Program-made: the position numbers and the translations under genes
Shown: piece after piece, positions 686-12,565 of the stretch
Numbering within the stretch: the stretch's first letter is position 1
Layout: each line of letters begins with the position of its first letter
From: Candidatus Eiseniibacteriota bacterium
GTDB taxonomy: Bacteria > Arandabacterota > Arandabacteria > JAGLYR01
Reading direction: 5' to 3'
Assembly: GCA_023132135.1 (NCBI GenBank)
Contig: JAGLYR010000263.1
Coordinates: forward strand, 1 to 12,611
Length of the DNA: 12,611 nt
The notes under the pieces: model-generated
Told to the model about the DNA's origin: nothing
Seen by the model: the letters and a program-made list of their open reading frames with translations, nothing else
The model's database searches: none

Positions 686-2275
686 ATGGCGAGAGCACGG
701 AAGGGCAAGGTCAAGGTACCTAGGAACAACGGGGCAAATCTTGGGTTCGAGGCAAAGCTCTGGACAGCGGCCGACAAGATGCGGGGACACATGGACCCGG
801 GGGAGTACAAGCACGTGGCCCTCGGACTCATCTTTCTCAAGTATGTTTCCGACGCCTTCGAGGAGCGCCATGCCCACCTGTTGAACCGGGTTGACCGAGG
901 GGCGGATCCTGAGGATCCGGATGAGTACCGTGCCAAGAACATTTTCTGGGTGCCGAAGGAGGCTCGCTGGGGCCAGCTCCAGAGCAGCGCTAAGCAACCA
1001 GAGATCGGGAAGCTCATCGACGATGCCATGGTGGCCATCGAGCGGGACAACCCGTCCCTGAAGGGGGTCTTGTCCAAGGACTACGCCCGACCTGCCCTGG
1101 ACAAGCGCCGGCTGGGCGAACTGATCGACCTGATCGGTACCATCGGCCTCGGTGACGAGGAGAGCCGCTCGAAGGACATCCTTGGCCGGGTCTACGAGTA
1201 TTTCCTCGGGCAGTTCGCCAGCAAGGAGGGCAAGAAGGGCGGCGAGTTCTACACCCCCAGGTGCATCGTCAAACTCCTGGTCGAGATGATCGAGCCTTAC
1301 AAAGGTCGTGTCTACGACCCCTGTTGTGGATCCTCGGGGATGTTCGTCCAGAGCAAGGAGTTCATCCGTGCCCACGACGGCGGCCTCGGCGACATCTCAA
1401 TCTACGGGCAGGAATCGAATCCGACCACTTGGCGGCTGGCCAAGATGAACCTGGCGATCAGGGGAATCGAAGCTAACCTCGGACCGCACAACGCCGACAG
1501 CTTCCACCGGGATCTCCACAAGGACCTTAAGGCCGACTTCATCCTTGCCAATCCGCCCTTCAACATGAGCGACTGGGGCGGCGATCGCCTCCGGGAGGAT
1601 GTACGCTGGAAGCACGGCGTCCCGCCCGTCGGCAACGCCAACTTCGCCTGGGTCCAGCACATGATTCACCATCTGGCGCCGACCGGCATTGTCGGCTTCG
1701 TTTTGGCCAACGGCTCCATGTCCTCGAATCAGTCCGGCGAGGGCGAGATTCGGAAGAACGTCATCGAGGCCGACCTCGTGGACTGCATGATAGCCTTGCC
1801 TGGCCAGCTCTTCTATGGCACGGGCATCCCGGCCTGTCTCTGGTTCCTAGGGAGAGACAGATCTGGGAAACCCACTCGCGGCGGGAAACCCCTCAGCGAT
1901 CGTCGGGGGAAGACTCTTTTCATTGATGCCCGCAAGCTTGGGTACTTGGTGGATCGGGTCCACCGTGAGCTCTGTGACGAAGACATCCAGCGCATCGCAG
2001 GTACCTACCACGCGTGGCGCGGGGAGAAGGGGGCGGGCAAATACGAGGACATCCCGGGCTTCTGTAAGAGCGCGACCTTAGAGGATATCTGTGGTCATGG
2101 CCATGCGCTGACCCCTGGGCGTTATGTGGGAGCGGAGGAGACGGATGACGACGATGAGCCATTTGAAGAGAAGCTTCCTAGGCTGGTAAGGAGTCTAGAG
2201 GAGCAATTCTCCGAGGCGGGGAAGCTGGAAGAGACAATACTCAAGAATCTCGCAGAGGTGCATCTTGGGCGATGA
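686..2275 (+). CDS. hsdM: Type I restriction-modification system, DNA methyltransferase subunit HsdM
   Basis: This is the modification subunit of a type I RM enzyme. With HsdS it methylates adenine at N6 in the recognition site, and it is also needed for restriction. The 529-aa protein has an alpha-helical HsdM N-terminal domain (about residues 20-175, including [20 protein letters not shown]). Next come FYTP at 188-191, the SAM-binding motif [11 protein letters not shown] at 211-220, and the catalytic motif IV NPPF at 289-292 (the N/DPPY/F class). Length is normal for the family (about 500-540). Motif I has GSSG where GSGG is usual. The ATG is supported by GGAGGTG 8 nt upstream. The stop overlaps the start of hsdS by 11 nt, so the two are translationally coupled. 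Function is secure; the DNA target is unknown. Confidence 0.97.
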
Positions 2276-3590
2276 CGGGCCTCTCTTTTCCGTGGCAGAG
2301 CTTCAAGATGCAGGATGCCTGCATGTTGAGGACGGAAACCACGGAGAGTATCGACCCCGACCACACGAGTTCGGGAGCGGTGACACTGCGTTCATTCGCG
2401 CAGCGAACATAGCGGATGGCCGGATTCTCTTCCAGTCGGCCGACCGAATCAGCGACACGGCTTTGGCGAGAATTCGGAAAGGGAAGGGTCGCGGCGGGGA
2501 TGTTTTGTTCTCCCACAAGGGTACCATCGGCAAACTCGCTCTTGCGCCAATGGACGCTCCTCCCTACGTGTGCTCTCCGCAGACCACGTTCTGGCGGACA
2601 CTTGATCCTAGCCGTCTAGACAGGCGGTTCCTGTACTACTTCATGCACTCCAAGACGTTCAGGAATCAGTGGCAATCCTGTAAGGGCGAGACAGACATGG
2701 CGGACTATGTCAGTCTCACCGCTCAGCGCCGCCTTCGCATAGCAGTGCCAAGCATGGGAGAGCAACGCTCCATTGCCCGTATCCTTGGTACGCTCGACGA
2801 CAAGATCGAGCTCAACCGCCGTATGAACGAGACCTTGGAGGCCATCGCCAGGGCAATCTTCAAGTCGTGGTTCGTGGACTTCGATCCCGTACGGGCCAAG
2901 GCGGAAGGTCGAGAGCCAGTGGGGATGGATGCGGAGCTGGCGGCGATGTTTCCGGACTCATTCGAGGACTCACCCATCGGCAAGATTCCAAAGGGGTGGA
3001 CAGCAGGAACCATCGGGGATCTAGCCGAGAATCTGCGCCGCGGAGTCCACCCTAGGGACATCGATGGTGAGACTCCCTACATCGCCTTGGAGCACATGCC
3101 CCGGAGGAGCATCGCCCTCGGAGAGTGGGGTCATGCCGAAGGCTTGGCAAGTGGCAAGTTGGAGTTCAAGCACGGCGAGATCCTGTTCGGAAAGCTCCGC
3201 CCCTACTTCCACAAGGTTGGCGTCGCCCCAGTCGATGGTGTCTGTTCGACGGACATCCTCGTGGTTGTACCCAAACGACCGAGCCTTCTTGGTCTAGTGT
3301 TAGGTCACATGTCCAGTGACGAGTTTGTCCAGCATGCTGACGCCACATCGAGCGGCACCAAGATGCCTCGCACTAACTGGAAGGATCTGGCTCGGTATGA
3401 GACAGCCTTACCCCCGGCGGAGCTTGCCTCGCTTTTCGACACCAGGGTCAAACCGCTTGTCGGAATGATCCTGTCCAACATCCATGAATCGCGGACTCTT
3501 GGCACGATTAGGGACGCTCTGTTGCCAAGACTAATCTCGGGCGACCTGGCAGTCGCCCGGGCTTCAGGTTTTGTCGGAGAGGGGACCTGA
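2265..3590 (+). CDS. hsdS: Type I restriction-modification system, specificity subunit HsdS
   Basis: HsdS recognises the bipartite DNA target and holds HsdM and HsdR together. The 441-aa protein has the usual two-half layout. Target-recognition domain 1 spans about residues 1-160. A central conserved helix at about 165-212 includes [20 protein letters not shown] and [14 protein letters not shown]. Target-recognition domain 2 spans about 235-395, opening with [13 protein letters not shown]. The C-terminal conserved helix is at about 400-430 ([20 protein letters not shown]). The start is TTG at 2265, chosen because GAGGTG at 2254-2259 sits 5 nt upstream and the frame begins inside the hsdM end. 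The stop TGA shares one base with the ATG of the next gene. Both halves look intact, so a functional two-part specificity is expected; the sequence recognised cannot be read from this. Confidence 0.96.
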
Positions 3591-5389
3591 TGCTCTTTCG
3601 CAGGAAGAAGGCTGAGAGAGAGGAGAAGCCGACTAGGACGCAACCTGCAGAGACGGCGAAGACCTGCAAGTACCCCAAGCCCAAGATCCTCTTGGTGGAC
3701 ATGCCGCCAAAGTGCGCACAGGTTCTGAGCCAGGCAGGGTACAACGTCTCGGTCGGAACCTTCGGAATCCCGCGGGCAGTGGACAAGTGCGATAATCTCT
3801 TCCCGATGCCTTCAGCCTCAGCGGATCTTCCAGATTACGAGGAACAGGAGATCGTCATAGCGAACCTGGCACGCCCCGAACCTGCCGACACACCTCTCGA
3901 GGGGCTGCCGGGCAGGGGCGTTGGGATCGTCTGTCAGGAGGGAACAGAAGGTGTCATTGACCAGCGACCATTGGTGATGACCCGCGTCTGCCCTGCGTTC
4001 GACCGCATAAGGGAATACGGCGGAATCTTCATCTTCTTTGCCTCTGAGCCGTACGAAGTGGAGTACGCGATCGGTCAAGTTGGCCCGTACGACACTCCAC
4101 ACGTCGAGAAGCGCATAACGTTCTCAAACCACTGCTGCTTGACTGAACTGGAATCCGTGGCAATGGAACCCCAGCGGGGATCAGAGATCACGTTCGAATC
4201 CTCGTCCGACGAGTTCAGGGACTTGCTGAGAAAAGGAGCCAAGGATGCCAGGTACCATTGCACGCTGCGCGTGAAGCCGTGGGGTGAGAGCGAGTGGATT
4301 CCGCTTGCCGAGAACAAGTATGGACAGGACGTTGGCGGACTGCTCGCATATCCACAGCCACAGGGTCACGTGCTCCTGCTCCCGCAAATGCCGCAGGTGC
4401 ATAGAATTCTCGTGGAGCTCGTTGGTAAGTGGTGCTCGTCGTGGAAACCGTTTCTGTTCCCATACGCGGACGCGACGCAGTGGATACAGCGCCCAGAGTA
4501 CGACCTCCCCAAGGTCCAAGAGCTGCATAGGCAGATCGAGAGCATCGAGCGGGCGGCAGCCGATCAAGTCCAGAACCTGAAAGATAAAATCGAAGAGGAA
4601 CGAGCAGCGCACCGGCACTGGCAGACCCTTCTGACTGGGACAGGTCATGACCTAAAACAGGCTGTCATTCTGGCCTTGCAGAATCTTGGGTTCGAGAAGG
4701 TCACCGATGTGGACAAGGACGCGGAGCAGCGAGGCGAGGGAAGAGCCCTTCGTGAGGATATCCGGATTCATGACCGAGCACCTGTTCTGATAGTGGACGT
4801 GAAAGGTCTGCAGGGGCACCCATCCGATGACGATGCTCGCCAGGCAGAGAAGCACGCGACTCTTCGTAGAGCGGAGTGGAGTAATGTGGAAGTCCGCGGG
4901 CTCACTATCATCAATCATCAGCGTCAGCAGCCACCGAGAAACAGAGACGCCAAGGCTTTCCGGGATGAGATTGTCAAGTACGCAGAAGAAGCTGGGCTAG
5001 GTCTCATGACAACATGGGATTTATTCAGGCTTCTGTCGAATGCAAGCAGACTGGGGTGGTCTCCAGAGGTCGTGAGGCCGATCTTCTATCGGGCTGGCAA
5101 GATTGAGCCGATCCCAGACCACTACGACGAGGTCGGGAGAATAGAGAAACTCTGGCAGCCGGCCTTCACAGTCAACCCTTCCCAGCCCCTACGTGTCGGA
5201 GAACGCCTTGCTGTAGAGACGGAGGATACGTTCGAGGAACTCACCATCCCCTCACTCCAGATCGATGGTCAGCCAGTTCAGGAGGCCCCTGCAGACACGA
5301 GATGCGGTATTGGCTGCGAAGGTGCCTCAGAGCGATTCCATGAAGGAGCACGCGTGTTCATAGTGCGCATGCAGAGCGGCCAATCATGA
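3590..5389 (+). CDS. Unrecognised accessory protein with predicted PD-(D/E)xK nuclease-like C-terminal domain
   Basis: I do not recognise this 599-aa protein as a named family. Residues ~31-165 look like an alpha/beta Rossmann-type fold: strand KILLVDMP at 32-39, strand EIVIANL at 87-93, strand GIFIFFAS at 145-152. This could be a receiver-like or glutamine-amidotransferase-like domain. Residues ~305-345 are charged and heptad-like, probably a coiled coil. Residues ~354-480 resemble a restriction-endonuclease fold: helix [11 protein letters not shown], then REDIRI with D390, then VLIVDVKG with D403 and K405 forming a (D/E)xK core, then a strand at 437-443 and a helix ending in TTWDLFRLL. The C-terminal ~80 residues are beta-rich. 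It sits inside the operon, sharing one base with hsdS and overlapping hsdR by ATGA, so it is almost certainly co-produced with the RM subunits. No transmembrane segment is seen. The role is inferred: accessory nuclease or sensor. Confidence 0.85.
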
Positions 5390-8300
5390 GCGAAGTACTA
5401 AGGGAATCCGATGTAGAAGCAGCTGCCCTTTCGTGGTTTGAGGAGCTGGGTTACTCCATCCTCCACGGTCCACACATCGCTCCGAATGAGATATTCGCGG
5501 AGCGGCAGGGCTACGATCAAGTCGCCCTGGAAGGCCGCCTGCGCGAGGCGCTGGAGCGACTGAATCCGGAAGCACCGCCCGCCGCCCTCGATGAAGCCTC
5601 CCGGAAGATCCTCCATCCCGACTCGCCATCGCTGGTCGTCAACAACCGCCGCTTCCACAGGATGCTGGTGGATGGAGTCACCGTCGAAGTGCCCTGGCAG
5701 GGCGGAGGCGTAAAGGGGGAGCGAGTACGTCTTGTCGACTTCAACGATCCGGACGCCAACGACTGGCTGGTGGTCAACCAGTTCACAGTGATCGAAGGAC
5801 AGGTCAACCGACGGCCGGACGCGCTGGTCTTCCTGAACGGCCTACCGCTGGCCGTGATCGAGTTGAAAAACCCAGCGGACGAGGAGGCCACAATCTGGAC
5901 GGCCTTCAACCAGCTCCAGACGTACAAGGCCCAGATCTCCTCCCTATTCACCTACAACGAGATCCTGCTCGTGTCTGACGGACTCGAGGCTCGCTTCGGG
6001 TCCCTGACCGCCAGCAAGGAGTGGTTCCTTCCCTGGCGGACTATCGAGGGAGAGGATCTCGCTCCGGCCACGATGCTCCGACTCGAGGTCCTGATCCGGG
6101 GCATGTTCGAGAAGGGACGCTTCCTTGATCTGATCCGGCACTTCGTCATCTTCGAAGAGGACGGGGAGGACATTATCAAGAAGATCGCCGGCTACCACCA
6201 GTTCCACGCAACGAGGAAGGCGGTGGAAACTACCGTCCTGGCGGCTAGCCCAAAGGGCGATCGCCGAGCTGGAGTCGTTTGGCACACCCAGGGGTCCGGC
6301 AAGAGCCTGACGATGCTCTGCCTGGCGGGCAAGTTGATTGTCCAGCCCGAGATGGAGAACCCCACCATCGTGCTTCTGACTGACCGGAACGACCTCGACG
6401 ATCAGTTGTTCGGAATCTTCGCCCGCTCAGCGGACCTCCTGAGACAGGCCCCAATCAACGCGGACAACCGGGCACATCTCCGAGAACTCCTGAAGGTGGC
6501 CTCGGGCGGTGTCGTGTTCACCACCATCCAGAAATTCTTCCCCGACGAGCGGGGCGACCGCCATCCATTGCTCTCCGACAGGCGGAACATCGTCGTGATC
6601 GCCGACGAGGCTCACCGGAGCCAGTACGACTTCATCGACGGCTTCGCCCGACACATGCGGGATGCTCTTCCCAATGCCACCTTCATAGGTTTCACCGGAA
6701 CCCCGATCGAGCTCGGAGACAGGAATACTCAGGCCGTCTTCGGCGACCACATCAGCATCTACGACATCCAGCGGGCAGTCGAGGACGGAGCAACGGTTCC
6801 GATCTACTACGAGAGCCGGCTGGCCGACCTGGTGCTAGACGAGAAAGAGAAGCCTCGCATCGATGAAGAGTTCGAAGAAGTCACTGAGGGTCAGGAACAG
6901 GAGCACAAGGAGAAGCTCAAGACCAAGTGGGCGGCGCTGGAAAAGATCGTCGGCAGTGAGAGGCGCTTGAACCTGATCGCCAGGGATCTGGTCAGGCACT
7001 TTGACGAGCGGCAGGACGCGATGGTTGGGAAGGCCATGGTCGTCTGTATGAGCCGGCGGATCTGCGTTGATCTCTACAACGCCATTACCGCACTTCGTCC
7101 GGAATGGCACTCGAAGGATGACGGGCAGGGCAGAATCAAAATCGTGATGACGGGCTCTGCCTCCGATCCGGTGGAGTGGCAGGATCACATCCGTAACAAG
7201 CCCCGCCGGGGAGCGCTGGCCAAACGGTTCAAGGACGCTGATGATTCCCTTACGATTGGCATCGTGAGGGATATGTGGCTGACGGGCTTCAACGCCCCTT
7301 CCCTCCACACGATGTATGTGGACAAGCCCATGCGAGGGCACGGTCTGATGCAGGCCATTGCCCGAGTCAATCGTGTCTTCAGGGACAAGCCCGGTGGCCT
7401 GGTGGTCGACTACCTAGGGTTGGCGGACAGTCTACGGCACGCCATGGCAGTCTACACCCAGAGCGGCGGCAAAGGGCAGACTGCGGTCAACCAGAGCGAG
7501 GCCGTGGCCGTCATGCTCGAGCGCTACGAGATCTGCCGCGACCTCTTCCATGGCTTCGACTACTCCGGGTACCTCCAGGGCACCCAACAGGAGAAGCTAG
7601 GCTTCCTTCCCTCTGCGCAGGAGTACATCCTCGCGCAGGAGGACGGCAAGGATCGGTTCACCAAGGCTGTAGTGGATCTGTCAAAGGCTTTTGCCCTGGC
7701 TGTCCCGAGGCAAGAGGCTCTGGACATCCGGGATGAAGTCGCCTTCTTCCAGACAGTGAAGGCGGCGCTCGTCAAGCGGGTCAACGGGCCTGTCCGGCGT
7801 GCTGAGGAAATCGACCACGCGATCCGGCAGATCCTCTCCAAGGCAATCGTCTCCGAAGAGGTTATCGACATCTTCCAAGCCGCTGGGCTGAAGAAGCCGG
7901 ACATCTCGCTTCTCTCCGAGGAGTTCTTAGCCGAGGTCAAAGGACTGCCCCACAAGAATCTGGCGGTGGAGCTCCTGCGGAAACTCCTGAACGATGAGAT
8001 CAGGACCCGGACTCGCAAGAATCTCGTCCAGTCCCGCTCCTTCGCCGACATGCTCGAGCAGACCCTTCAACGCTACCGGAACCGGGCCATCGAGACAGCC
8101 CAGGTGATCGAGGAACTGATCGCACTTGCCAAGCAGATGAGGGAGGCCCACCGTCGAGGAGAGGATCTCGGGCTGACCGAAGAGGAGCTGGCCTTCTACG
8201 ATGCATTGGAGACCAACGACAGCGCCGTCAGAGTGTTGGGGGATGAGGTCCTCCGGAAGATTGCCCAGGAACTTGCCACCACCGTCCGAAAGAACGCTAC

Positions 8301-9030
8301 CATCGACTGGACCCTCAAGGAAAGCACCCGGGCCAACCTCCGTCGACTCGTGAAGAGGCTCCTCCGCAAGTACAAATACCCTCCGGACAAGCAGGAGAAG
8401 GCCACCCAGACCGTGTTATCCCAGGCGGAGCTCTTTGGCTATGAGGTCGCAGAGGGAACCGTGGCCGGCCCATGGCCTGGCGACCAGGATCAGACCCTCC
8501 CGCTTCGCCGGCTGCCGACCGATGAGGTGCGACCCTTCGAGAACTGCGTGCCGCTCTACGATCTCAAGGTGGCTGCGGGTCGATTCAGCGAGGAGCAGCA
8601 GGTTGACGAGGTTCCCCAGGAGGACGAGATCCGGAGTCCCGAGAACTACGAGTGGGTCGAGCTGCCCGGCAGGTTTCGCCCTGAACGAGGCCTCTTCGTC
8701 GCCCAGGTCGTCGGTGAGTCCATGAACCGCCGCATCCCCAACGGATCCTGGTGTCTCTTCCGGCTGAATCCAGCAGGGACCCGCCAAGGCAAAATCGTCC
8801 TCGTCCAGCACCGGGACATCCACGACGCCGACCTCGGCGGCCAGTTCACCATAAAGCGGTACGAGAGTGAAAAGGAACAGCTGCCGGATGGGTCCTGGCG
8901 ACATACGAAGATTGTTCTGAAACCCGACACCGACGCGTACGGGTACGAGGACATCGTGCTTGCAGCTGACCAGGAGGGTGGAGTCCTAGTCGTCGCCGAG
9001 CTGGTGGCTCCGCTCGCGGATTCCTCATGA
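5386..9030 (+). CDS. hsdR: Type I restriction subunit HsdR fused to a C-terminal LexA-like S24 peptidase domain
   Basis: This is the ATP-dependent DNA translocase and nuclease of the type I system. In the 1214-aa protein the nuclease core is RRPDALVF with D145 and AVIELK with E159 and K161 (the PD-ExK pattern). SF2 helicase motifs follow: Walker A TQGSGKS at 301-307, DEAH at 407-410, FTGTP at 436-440, and motif [10 protein letters not shown] at 656-663. Residues ~670-1000 are the usual helical C-terminal part. HsdR of this kind normally ends near 1000-1050. Here residues ~1040-1214 form an S24-like domain: [17 protein letters not shown] with candidate scissile bond A1064-G1065, [13 protein letters not shown] with nucleophile S1112, and FTIKRY with general base K1157. 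The order AG, Ser, Lys matches LexA and UmuD. The start ATG overlaps the upstream stop (ATGA) with only a weak Shine-Dalgarno, so translation is likely coupled. The fusion is one uninterrupted frame. Confidence 0.96.
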
Positions 9031-10299: not shown

Positions 10300-10460
10300 C
10301 GGCCAACTGTCCCCAGATGTTCGTCACCCAGCTGATACCTGGCGATGCGTGTGCTGCTGGGGTCAGGTCCTGCAATGCAACAAAACCGAACGTAAGTATT
10401 GGAATAGCAGAGGTTGACAGATCTTCTCCGAGTACCTCCGGCACCGCGCCGGTCTGGCCT
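10300..10460. repeat. Intergenic REP-like fragments
   Basis: Two short segments look like pieces of dispersed intergenic repeats. ACTGTCCCCAG at 10306-10316 occurs in reverse complement at 12150-12160. At 10357-10386 lies CTGGGGTCAGGTCCTGCAAT followed by GCAACAAAACC. From memory, its reverse complement (TTGCAGGACCTGACCCC) resembles sequences often seen near REP-associated (RAYT/IS200-type) transposases. No transposase gene is present here. Confidence 0.3.
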
Positions 10461-10488
10461 TGTGGCCGGCGCAGGACTTTGCTATCAT
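10460..10488 (+). promoter_or_regulatory. Promoter of the FlgD-like-domain gene
   Basis: TTGTGG at 10460-10465 and TATCAT at 10483-10488 are 17 nt apart, and TGC immediately before TATCAT makes an extended -10. Transcription would start near 10495, about 65 nt before the chosen ATG at 10561. Confidence 0.5.
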
Positions 10489-10560
10489 AGGGATTGGAGA
10501 CGATGCAGATTCCCGCCTCGCGGAATAGCCTCGTCACCGATCCTCCCCGGGAGAAGCGTG

Positions 10561-11277
10561 ATGAAACGCCGAACCCTGACAAGTGCAATCTTTTTCTCCA
10601 TCCTCGGCAGTCTGTTGACTCCATTGCCTGCTGACTCTAACCTCGAATCCGTTGAGCTGCTTCCAGCAAGACCGACGGTCGTGGATTCGCTGCGGGTCTT
10701 GGTTCACGGTTTCCTGTACGATGGCTGTTGGAATCTTCCGTCTTTCGAGTTCTGTGATCACGGGGTCTGCGCATTTCCCGAATCCACCGGTGTCTCCGAT
10801 CACACGCTCTACATACATATCCTCGCAGTTGACTTCTGGCATGCGGGGGCCGCTTGCTGGGATGTGTGGACCGACTATGTGTGCAGCCACAACTTCGGCC
10901 CGCTCCCGCCAGGGCACTACTCGGTGATCGTTACCGAGCATCACGAATCGTTGCGAGATCCTGACCCAGAGGTGTTGACCACCGAGTTCGATGTCATCGC
11001 CTACGCCCTTCTTCAGAACATGCCGAATCCCTTCAATCCAGCCACAAGAATTCGGTACGTCCTCCCTCGAATGGGTCTAGTGGATCTACGAGTCTGGGAT
11101 GCGGGGGGGCACCTGGTCCGGACGCTTGTTCGATCTCAGCAGTCCGCCGGATGGAATGAAGTCACGTGGTTGGGGGATGACAACAACGGTAACCCGGTTG
11201 CCAGCGGTATCTACTTCTACCGGCTTGGGGTGGATGGCAGGGATTGGCAGACGCGGAAGATGGTGCTCCTTCGATAG
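10561..11277 (+). CDS. Secreted protein with C-terminal FlgD-Ig-like / type IX-style sorting domain
   Basis: The 238-aa protein starts at ATG 10561, behind GGGAG 7 nt upstream. A longer TTG-started frame from 10414 is unlikely, because it would bury the signal peptide (MKRRTLTSAIFFSILGSLLT). Residues ~27-147 form an unrecognised beta-rich domain with five cysteines (C56, C65, C70, C99, C108), which may form disulphides outside the cytoplasm. Residues ~149-238 match the FlgD-Ig-like / T9SS type A-like C-terminal domain: LLQNMPNPFNPATRIRY, VDLRVWDAGGHLVRTL, the glycine- and asparagine-rich turn WLGDDNNGNPVASG, then IYFYRL and a terminal KMVLLR. In FCB-group bacteria this domain marks proteins for secretion or surface attachment. 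The substrate or role is not visible. It has its own promoter. Confidence 0.88.
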   Translation: MKRRTLTSAIFFSILGSLLTPLPADSNLESVELLPARPTVVDSLRVLVHGFLYDGCWNLPSFEFCDHGVCAFPESTGVSDHTLYIHILAVDFWHAGAACWDVWTDYVCSHNFGPLPPGHYSVIVTEHHESLRDPDPEVLTTEFDVIAYALLQNMPNPFNPATRIRYVLPRMGLVDLRVWDAGGHLVRTLVRSQQSAGWNEVTWLGDDNNGNPVASGIYFYRLGVDGRDWQTRKMVLLR

Positions 11278-12414: not shown

Positions 12415-12462
12415 GAAAAATTCCCCGTTGCGGCAGGCGGGTAGCGGGGGAAAAGGGCAAGT

Positions 12463-12535
12463 GGGCCCATAGCTCAGTGGTTAGAGCCGCCGGCTCATAA
12501 CCGGAAGGTCCTTGGTTCAAACCCAAGTGGGCCCA
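12463..12535 (+). tRNA. tRNA with anticodon CAU (Met elongator or Ile2)
   Basis: A full cloverleaf is visible. The acceptor stem is GGGCCCA with TGGGCCC, the D stem GCTC/GAGC, and the anticodon loop CTCATAA with CAT at 12496-12498. The T arm is CTTGG-TTCAAAC-CCAAG. One anticodon-stem pair (G-A at the base) is mismatched. The discriminator A is followed by CCCCA, so the CCA end is not clearly encoded. CAU is shared by elongator Met and by Ile2 (lysidine-modified). The overall pattern recalls Ile2, but this cannot be settled by eye. Confidence 0.94.
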
Positions 12536-12565
12536 CCCCATAGCGGTATGGTGAAGGGGTACCGT

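Follow-up and report, generated by a model that had tools for sequence, protein, structure and literature searches.

The restriction subunit (HsdR) of a type I restriction-modification operon in Candidatus Eiseniibacteriota ends in what is, judging by both its sequence and its predicted structure, a real LexA/UmuD-type S24 domain. The gene lies in the window, by which we mean the whole stretch of 12,611 nucleotides that was analysed. HsdR and S24 are each known families, and their combination appears undescribed: in the open-access literature searched, we found neither an HsdR-S24 protein nor an S24 tail common to several defence enzymes, although some such architectures may already be recorded in domain databases. 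Two large reviews, which deal with type I or host-dependent restriction, do not use the term S24 (PMC3874165, PMC12707154). An HsdR with a built-in candidate protease, a defined bond and two candidate catalytic residues makes it possible to ask, by point mutants, how type I restriction is held in check once host DNA loses its protection.

A type I restriction-modification operon with a tailed HsdR

On its + strand, the window carries a single type I restriction-modification operon, hsdM-hsdS-599-aa gene-hsdR (686-9030), in which each gene overlaps the next by a few bases. Its genes and the parts of HsdR are as follows:

686-2275, + strand: hsdM, type I modification methyltransferase, 529 aa (Pfam HsdM_N and N6_Mtase; PADLOC MTase_I, 764.6 bits)
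2265-3590, + strand: hsdS, type I specificity subunit, 441 aa, with a TTG start overlapping hsdM (Pfam Methylase_S; PADLOC Specificity_I, 307 bits)
3590-5389, + strand: protein of 599 aa, family unassigned, between hsdS and hsdR and overlapping both
5386-9030, + strand: hsdR, type I restriction subunit with C-terminal S24 tail, 1214 aa (ORF, Pfam, NCBIfam, PADLOC)
5386-8445, + strand: HsdR core, residues 1-1020, comprising nuclease, SWI2/SNF2 motor and C-terminal helical domain
8464-8493, + strand: low-confidence, probably flexible linker from core to tail, residues about 1027-1036 (pLDDT <50, residues 338-347 of the model of HsdR 690-1214)
8491-9027, + strand: S24 (LexA/UmuD-like) module, residues about 1036-1214 (Pfam, AlphaFold model, LexA superposition, hhalign to LexA)

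Within residues 5-1017 of HsdR, Pfam detected HSDR_N, SWI2_SNF2, T1R_D3-like and T1RH-like_C (PF04313, PF18766, PF22679 and PF11867), and the protein scored 606.7 bits against TIGR00348. With its HSDR_N nuclease, SWI2/SNF2 motor, C-terminal helical domain and an operon shared with hsdM and hsdS, it has the whole core and the gene context of type I HsdR (PADLOC REase_I PDLC03040). It differs from its bare relatives by about 190 extra C-terminal residues, including the S24 module. The bare HsdRs examined stop 3-10 residues past the homologous core end, at about window residue 1020, so that the S24 tail has been appended cleanly to an enzyme that is already whole. This agrees with an earlier reading of the sequence alone, which had held that a cut, here placed at residue 1064, would remove the C-terminal domain from an otherwise full HsdR.

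The 599-aa protein had no matches in Pfam, NCBIfam or PADLOC, and only weak partial ones in 2 of 193 other genomes; inspected by eye, one stretch of it resembles a coiled coil, and a D-x-R...VLIVDVK segment recalls PD-(D/E)XK nucleases. Downstream of the operon, the window also encodes, on the + strand, a probably secreted protein with a FlgD Ig-like C-terminal domain (10414-11277) and, near the right edge, a tRNA-Met gene (12462-12538).

The sequence-only reading had described the S24 domain as complete-looking and had named a PF00717 search and a superposition on LexA/UmuD as checks; both came out in its favour. Peptidase_S24 (PF00717) matched HsdR residues 1056-1165 with 29.6 bits, above the Pfam cut-off of 23.3. 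An AlphaFold model of the tail, built from an alignment of 55 tails, had a mean pLDDT of 82.6 and a pTM of 0.80, and VIA-align superposed it on Thermotoga LexA (3k2z; Z 12.1, 122 residues, rmsd 2.9) and on E. coli LexA S119A (1jhh; Z 11.3, 115 residues, rmsd 2.8). The next matches were RecA-bound LexA, lambda CI and UmuD' structures, followed by signal peptidases (Z 5-6.5), with unrelated folds only at about Z 3. Aligned stretches begin at model residues 22-26; the superposition on these two LexA structures runs from residues 22-24 to 184-185 and includes the cleavage-site segment (bond at model residues 36-37). Among PDB sequences, a phmmer search with the tail alone retrieved nothing beyond designed repeat proteins and weak matches attributable to chance, whereas a tail profile gave weak matches to LexA; the structural case for the tail therefore rests on the model. 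The earlier delimitation of the domain holds apart from its start (8503), which was slightly late, as the conserved module begins at about residue 1036, near nucleotide 8491. In the model of HsdR 690-1214 (pTM 0.50), the tail is not confidently packed on the core.

Candidate active site and its conservation

Three candidate elements of a self-cleaving protease are present in the tail, in LexA order and exactly where they had been reported from the sequence:

8575-8580, + strand: candidate scissile bond Ala1064-Gly1065 in LKVAA/GRF
8719-8721, + strand: candidate nucleophile Ser1112 (GESM)
8854-8856, + strand: candidate general base Lys1157 (TIKRY)

When compared with E. coli LexA by hhalign, the AAG of the tail falls on A84-G85, the Ser on S119 and the Lys on K156. 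Conservation was assessed in 99 related tails from many phyla and many host enzymes. Both Ser (99/99) and Lys (98/98) are invariant, P1 is Ala in 96 of 98 tails and P1' is Gly in 91 of 97, the remainder being five Ser and one Thr. The expected conservation in homologues was thus found for Ser, Lys and, nearly always, Ala, and failed in part for Gly, the replaced tails including those of two HsdR proteins (L071, Ser; L166, Thr). The Ser-Lys spacing of 45 had been called close to the 37-43 of LexA and phage repressors, and these reference values proved correct (LexA 37, UmuD 37, lambda CI 43); among related tails, it is exactly 45 in 96 of 98. Given this constant spacing, the invariance of Ser and Lys and the superposition of the model on LexA, the predicted Ser-Lys arrangement is more than chance. 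The persistence of these residues on changing hosts would be accounted for best if the protease, and not only the fold, is in use. Between Ala-Gly and Ser, the window tail carries an insert of about 10-12 residues (48 residues versus the usual 36-38 in most relatives).

The tail thus shows the marks of the S24 family, namely a PF00717 match, a LexA-like fold in the model, a conserved and ordered Ser-Lys pair and an Ala-Gly N-terminal to the Ser, while the architecture is not that of LexA (TIGR00498), given that the partner N-terminal to S24 is HsdR and not a winged-helix DNA-binding domain. With the C-terminal S24 domain of LexA, it has in common the modelled fold (Z 11-12), the VAA/G bond and the ordered dyad. 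In contrast to LexA, the window HsdR has no DNA-binding HTH and its S24 follows a 1020-aa restriction motor; the tail also has a spacing of 45 instead of 37 and an extra conserved segment before the bond, and belongs to a distinct subfamily. UmuD and lambda CI share the Ser-Lys dyad and an Ala/Cys-Gly bond with the tail, and CI has the same AG.FS pattern after the bond; however, their partner domains differ, and P2 is Gln in both, whereas it is Ala in the window tail and in LexA. A cut at Ala-Gly would leave an x-Ala-Ala end in 94 of 98 tails and, given the Gln at P2 in UmuD and CI, such an end is not simply demanded by S24 chemistry.

Distribution of the tail among defence enzymes

The tail is a distinct S24 subfamily that moved among unrelated enzymes, several of which carry it in frame at their C-terminal side. 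Scanning 84,980 species genomes, we confirmed 275 loci and examined 80 of them in detail. The suspicion, voiced from the sequence alone, that the module is general on other defence enzymes was well founded: we detected it on T1RH-like HsdR (the window, L067, L071, L159 and L162), on a second HsdR class (L063, L128, L158 and L166), on a type ISP enzyme (L165), on type III-like Res proteins (L014 and L163), on Druantia DruE-like or MZB helicases (L015 and L160), on an IIG/DrmMI-like methyltransferase from the same genome as the window (L012) and on about 80 Schlafen-group-3 helicases (PF09848), one of them with a GIY-YIG domain. The Schlafen-group-3 tails belong to the same subfamily and are up to 69% identical to the window tail, although the N-terminal enzyme is unrelated to the window HsdR. 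In a broad sample, the tail was matched in 18 of 386 genomes, the weakest of these matches being marginal. On viral contigs, a single-sequence scan gave no matches and an alignment-based scan gave one locus (L128); none was found in the phage records scanned, and only one, from Halomonas, in the plasmid records.

The same S24 subfamily was also seen in HTH repressors (L123, 7641-8489; L161, 364-1410; L168, 6165-6911). The repressor RptR was rejected as a possible relation, being a 79-aa helical protein without S24.

In a tree of the tails, branches with strong support require at least 3 host changes for those of T1RH-like HsdR; the window tail clusters with Schlafen-type tails and shares 69% identity with one of them. 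The tree of HsdR cores mixes tailed with bare proteins and forces at least 2 changes. Both trees count host changes and do not tell gain from loss, and repeated acquisition of the tail would be the simplest reading of them. The occurrence of the same tail on unrelated defence enzymes suggests a shared route for switching them on or off. There is perhaps a little less than an even chance that this single mobile tail, self-cleaving in the manner of LexA, serves antiphage systems of unrelated kinds (type I, ISP, type III-like, IIG/DISARM-like, Druantia-like and Schlafen-type) as a common regulatory cassette. All of them would then answer to the same RecA-ssDNA or similar signal, which would act on the proteins themselves and involve neither LexA nor transcription. 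If so, the repeated gain of one self-cleaving tail by unrelated defence enzymes would amount to post-translational control of immunity by a DNA-damage-type signal. The tail also offers a sequence by which more regulated defence enzymes could be recognised.

The source genome (96% complete, 345 contigs) has three S24 matches, in the window HsdR, in the IIG/DrmMI-like enzyme and in a short protein with a weak match below the cut-off, and the clear S24 proteins detected in it are therefore only the tails of two defence enzymes. It encodes RecA and ClpX. LexA was not found in a TIGR00498 search, a provisional result given the incomplete assembly. A search for tmRNA brought up only tRNAs and no confident tmRNA, which gaps in the assembly may explain, and the genome's own ssrA tag therefore offers no comparison. 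The IIG/DrmMI-like methyltransferase, with the same S24 tail, belongs to a second defence-like operon (L012, C168:14000-28589 of the source genome, 249-11148 within it), alongside two helicases, one DruE-like and the other an SNF2 helicase resembling DpdE/DrmD.

Self-cleavage as a possible switch of restriction

Cleavage within the same chain is, from the conserved residues, most likely the activity of the tail. We tentatively favour the reading that it acts as an off-switch, self-cleavage exposing a C-terminal degron similar to those of LexA and ssrA. A LexA-type self-protease would sit on a probably flexible linker behind a complete HsdR, and its trigger would most likely be the RecA-ssDNA filament, a first guess made because the same filament triggers the cleavage of LexA, UmuD and CI. 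Ser1112 and Lys1157 would then cut Ala1064-Gly1065 in the same chain and release the tail, and HsdR(1-1064) would end in Leu-Lys-Val-Ala-Ala-COOH, resembling the N-terminal fragment of LexA, whose VAA end is a ClpX signal, and the ssrA tag, which ends in LAA. This product would most likely be handed to ClpXP, turning restriction off while HsdM and HsdS continue methylation, that is, restriction alleviation. We infer the cleavage itself, its triggering by RecA, the degron and the direction of the switch; in their support are the LexA-like model, the Val-Ala-Ala end left by the cut, the RecA and ClpX encoded in the genome, the intact conserved residues, the complete HsdR upstream and the presence of the same subfamily on HTH repressors. 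Because HsdR would still be complete after a cut at 1064, alleviation would need a second step, either degradation through the Val-Ala-Ala end or a requirement of the tail for activity. The x-Ala-Ala end may itself serve cleavage and not degradation, since the subfamily's HTH repressors conserve it just as well, and given that LexA was not found in the genome, a RecA-S24 axis cannot be assumed. The replacement of Gly by Ser or Thr in 6 of 97 tails also counts against the off-switch; in LexA, changing Gly85 to Asp blocks cleavage.

A functional parallel is EcoKI, whose HsdR is degraded by ClpXP in restriction alleviation; the target would be common to both systems and the protease possibly so. 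However, the HsdR of EcoKI becomes a target while DNA is being translocated, the search for its degron was unsuccessful, and no self-cleavage domain has been described in it (PMC4231737). In the plasmid-induced case tested, alleviation of EcoKI does not need SOS induction (PMC11109961).

The same anatomy suits activation equally well, as the product of the cut has the length of an ordinary active HsdR plus a short stub. The intact tail might restrain the enzyme, and self-cleavage induced by damage or infection might free a fully active ordinary HsdR, restriction rising when phage replication exposes ssDNA and RecA filaments. UmuD, activated by S24 cleavage, is a precedent, and the tail is also present on nucleases and helicases without obvious self-protection, such as the DruE-like and Schlafen-group-3 enzymes, including the one with GIY-YIG; for hosts that lack obvious methylation protection, such as Schlafen-group-3 helicases, an on-switch seems at least as natural. 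For the window HsdR, we consider activation the less likely direction: silencing is unnecessary when HsdM protects host DNA, no inhibitory packing of tail on core is confidently predicted (low-confidence linker, pTM 0.50), and an enzyme that is to be retained would be put at risk by its new Ala-Ala end.

It is rather improbable that the tail acts without cleaving itself, as a module for dimerisation or for binding RecA or a partner, or as a protease on another protein. The S24 domains of LexA, UmuD and CI do dimerise, the segment directly before Ala-Gly is conserved and well predicted, and the tails with a replaced Gly still keep Ser and Lys, all of which would fit such a role; an idle active site, however, would not be expected to hold its Ser, Lys and bond Ala at the observed frequencies over so many hosts. 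A chance fusion, an assembly artefact or a decayed domain without function is barely credible. The source genome is fragmented, but the reading frame is uninterrupted, and no fewer than 8 other loci (L067, L071, L063, L128, L158, L159, L162 and L166) encode HsdR-S24 fusions with this layout; these independent fusions contradict an origin by chance or artefact, which we therefore rejected.

Ala-Thr or Ala-Ser in place of Ala-Gly, with Ser intact, was observed in L166 (5394-8903, - strand), L071, L165, L014, L016 and L169, and the Lys of these tails is intact where the sequence is readable. Such tails are natural tests of whether the bond needs Gly.
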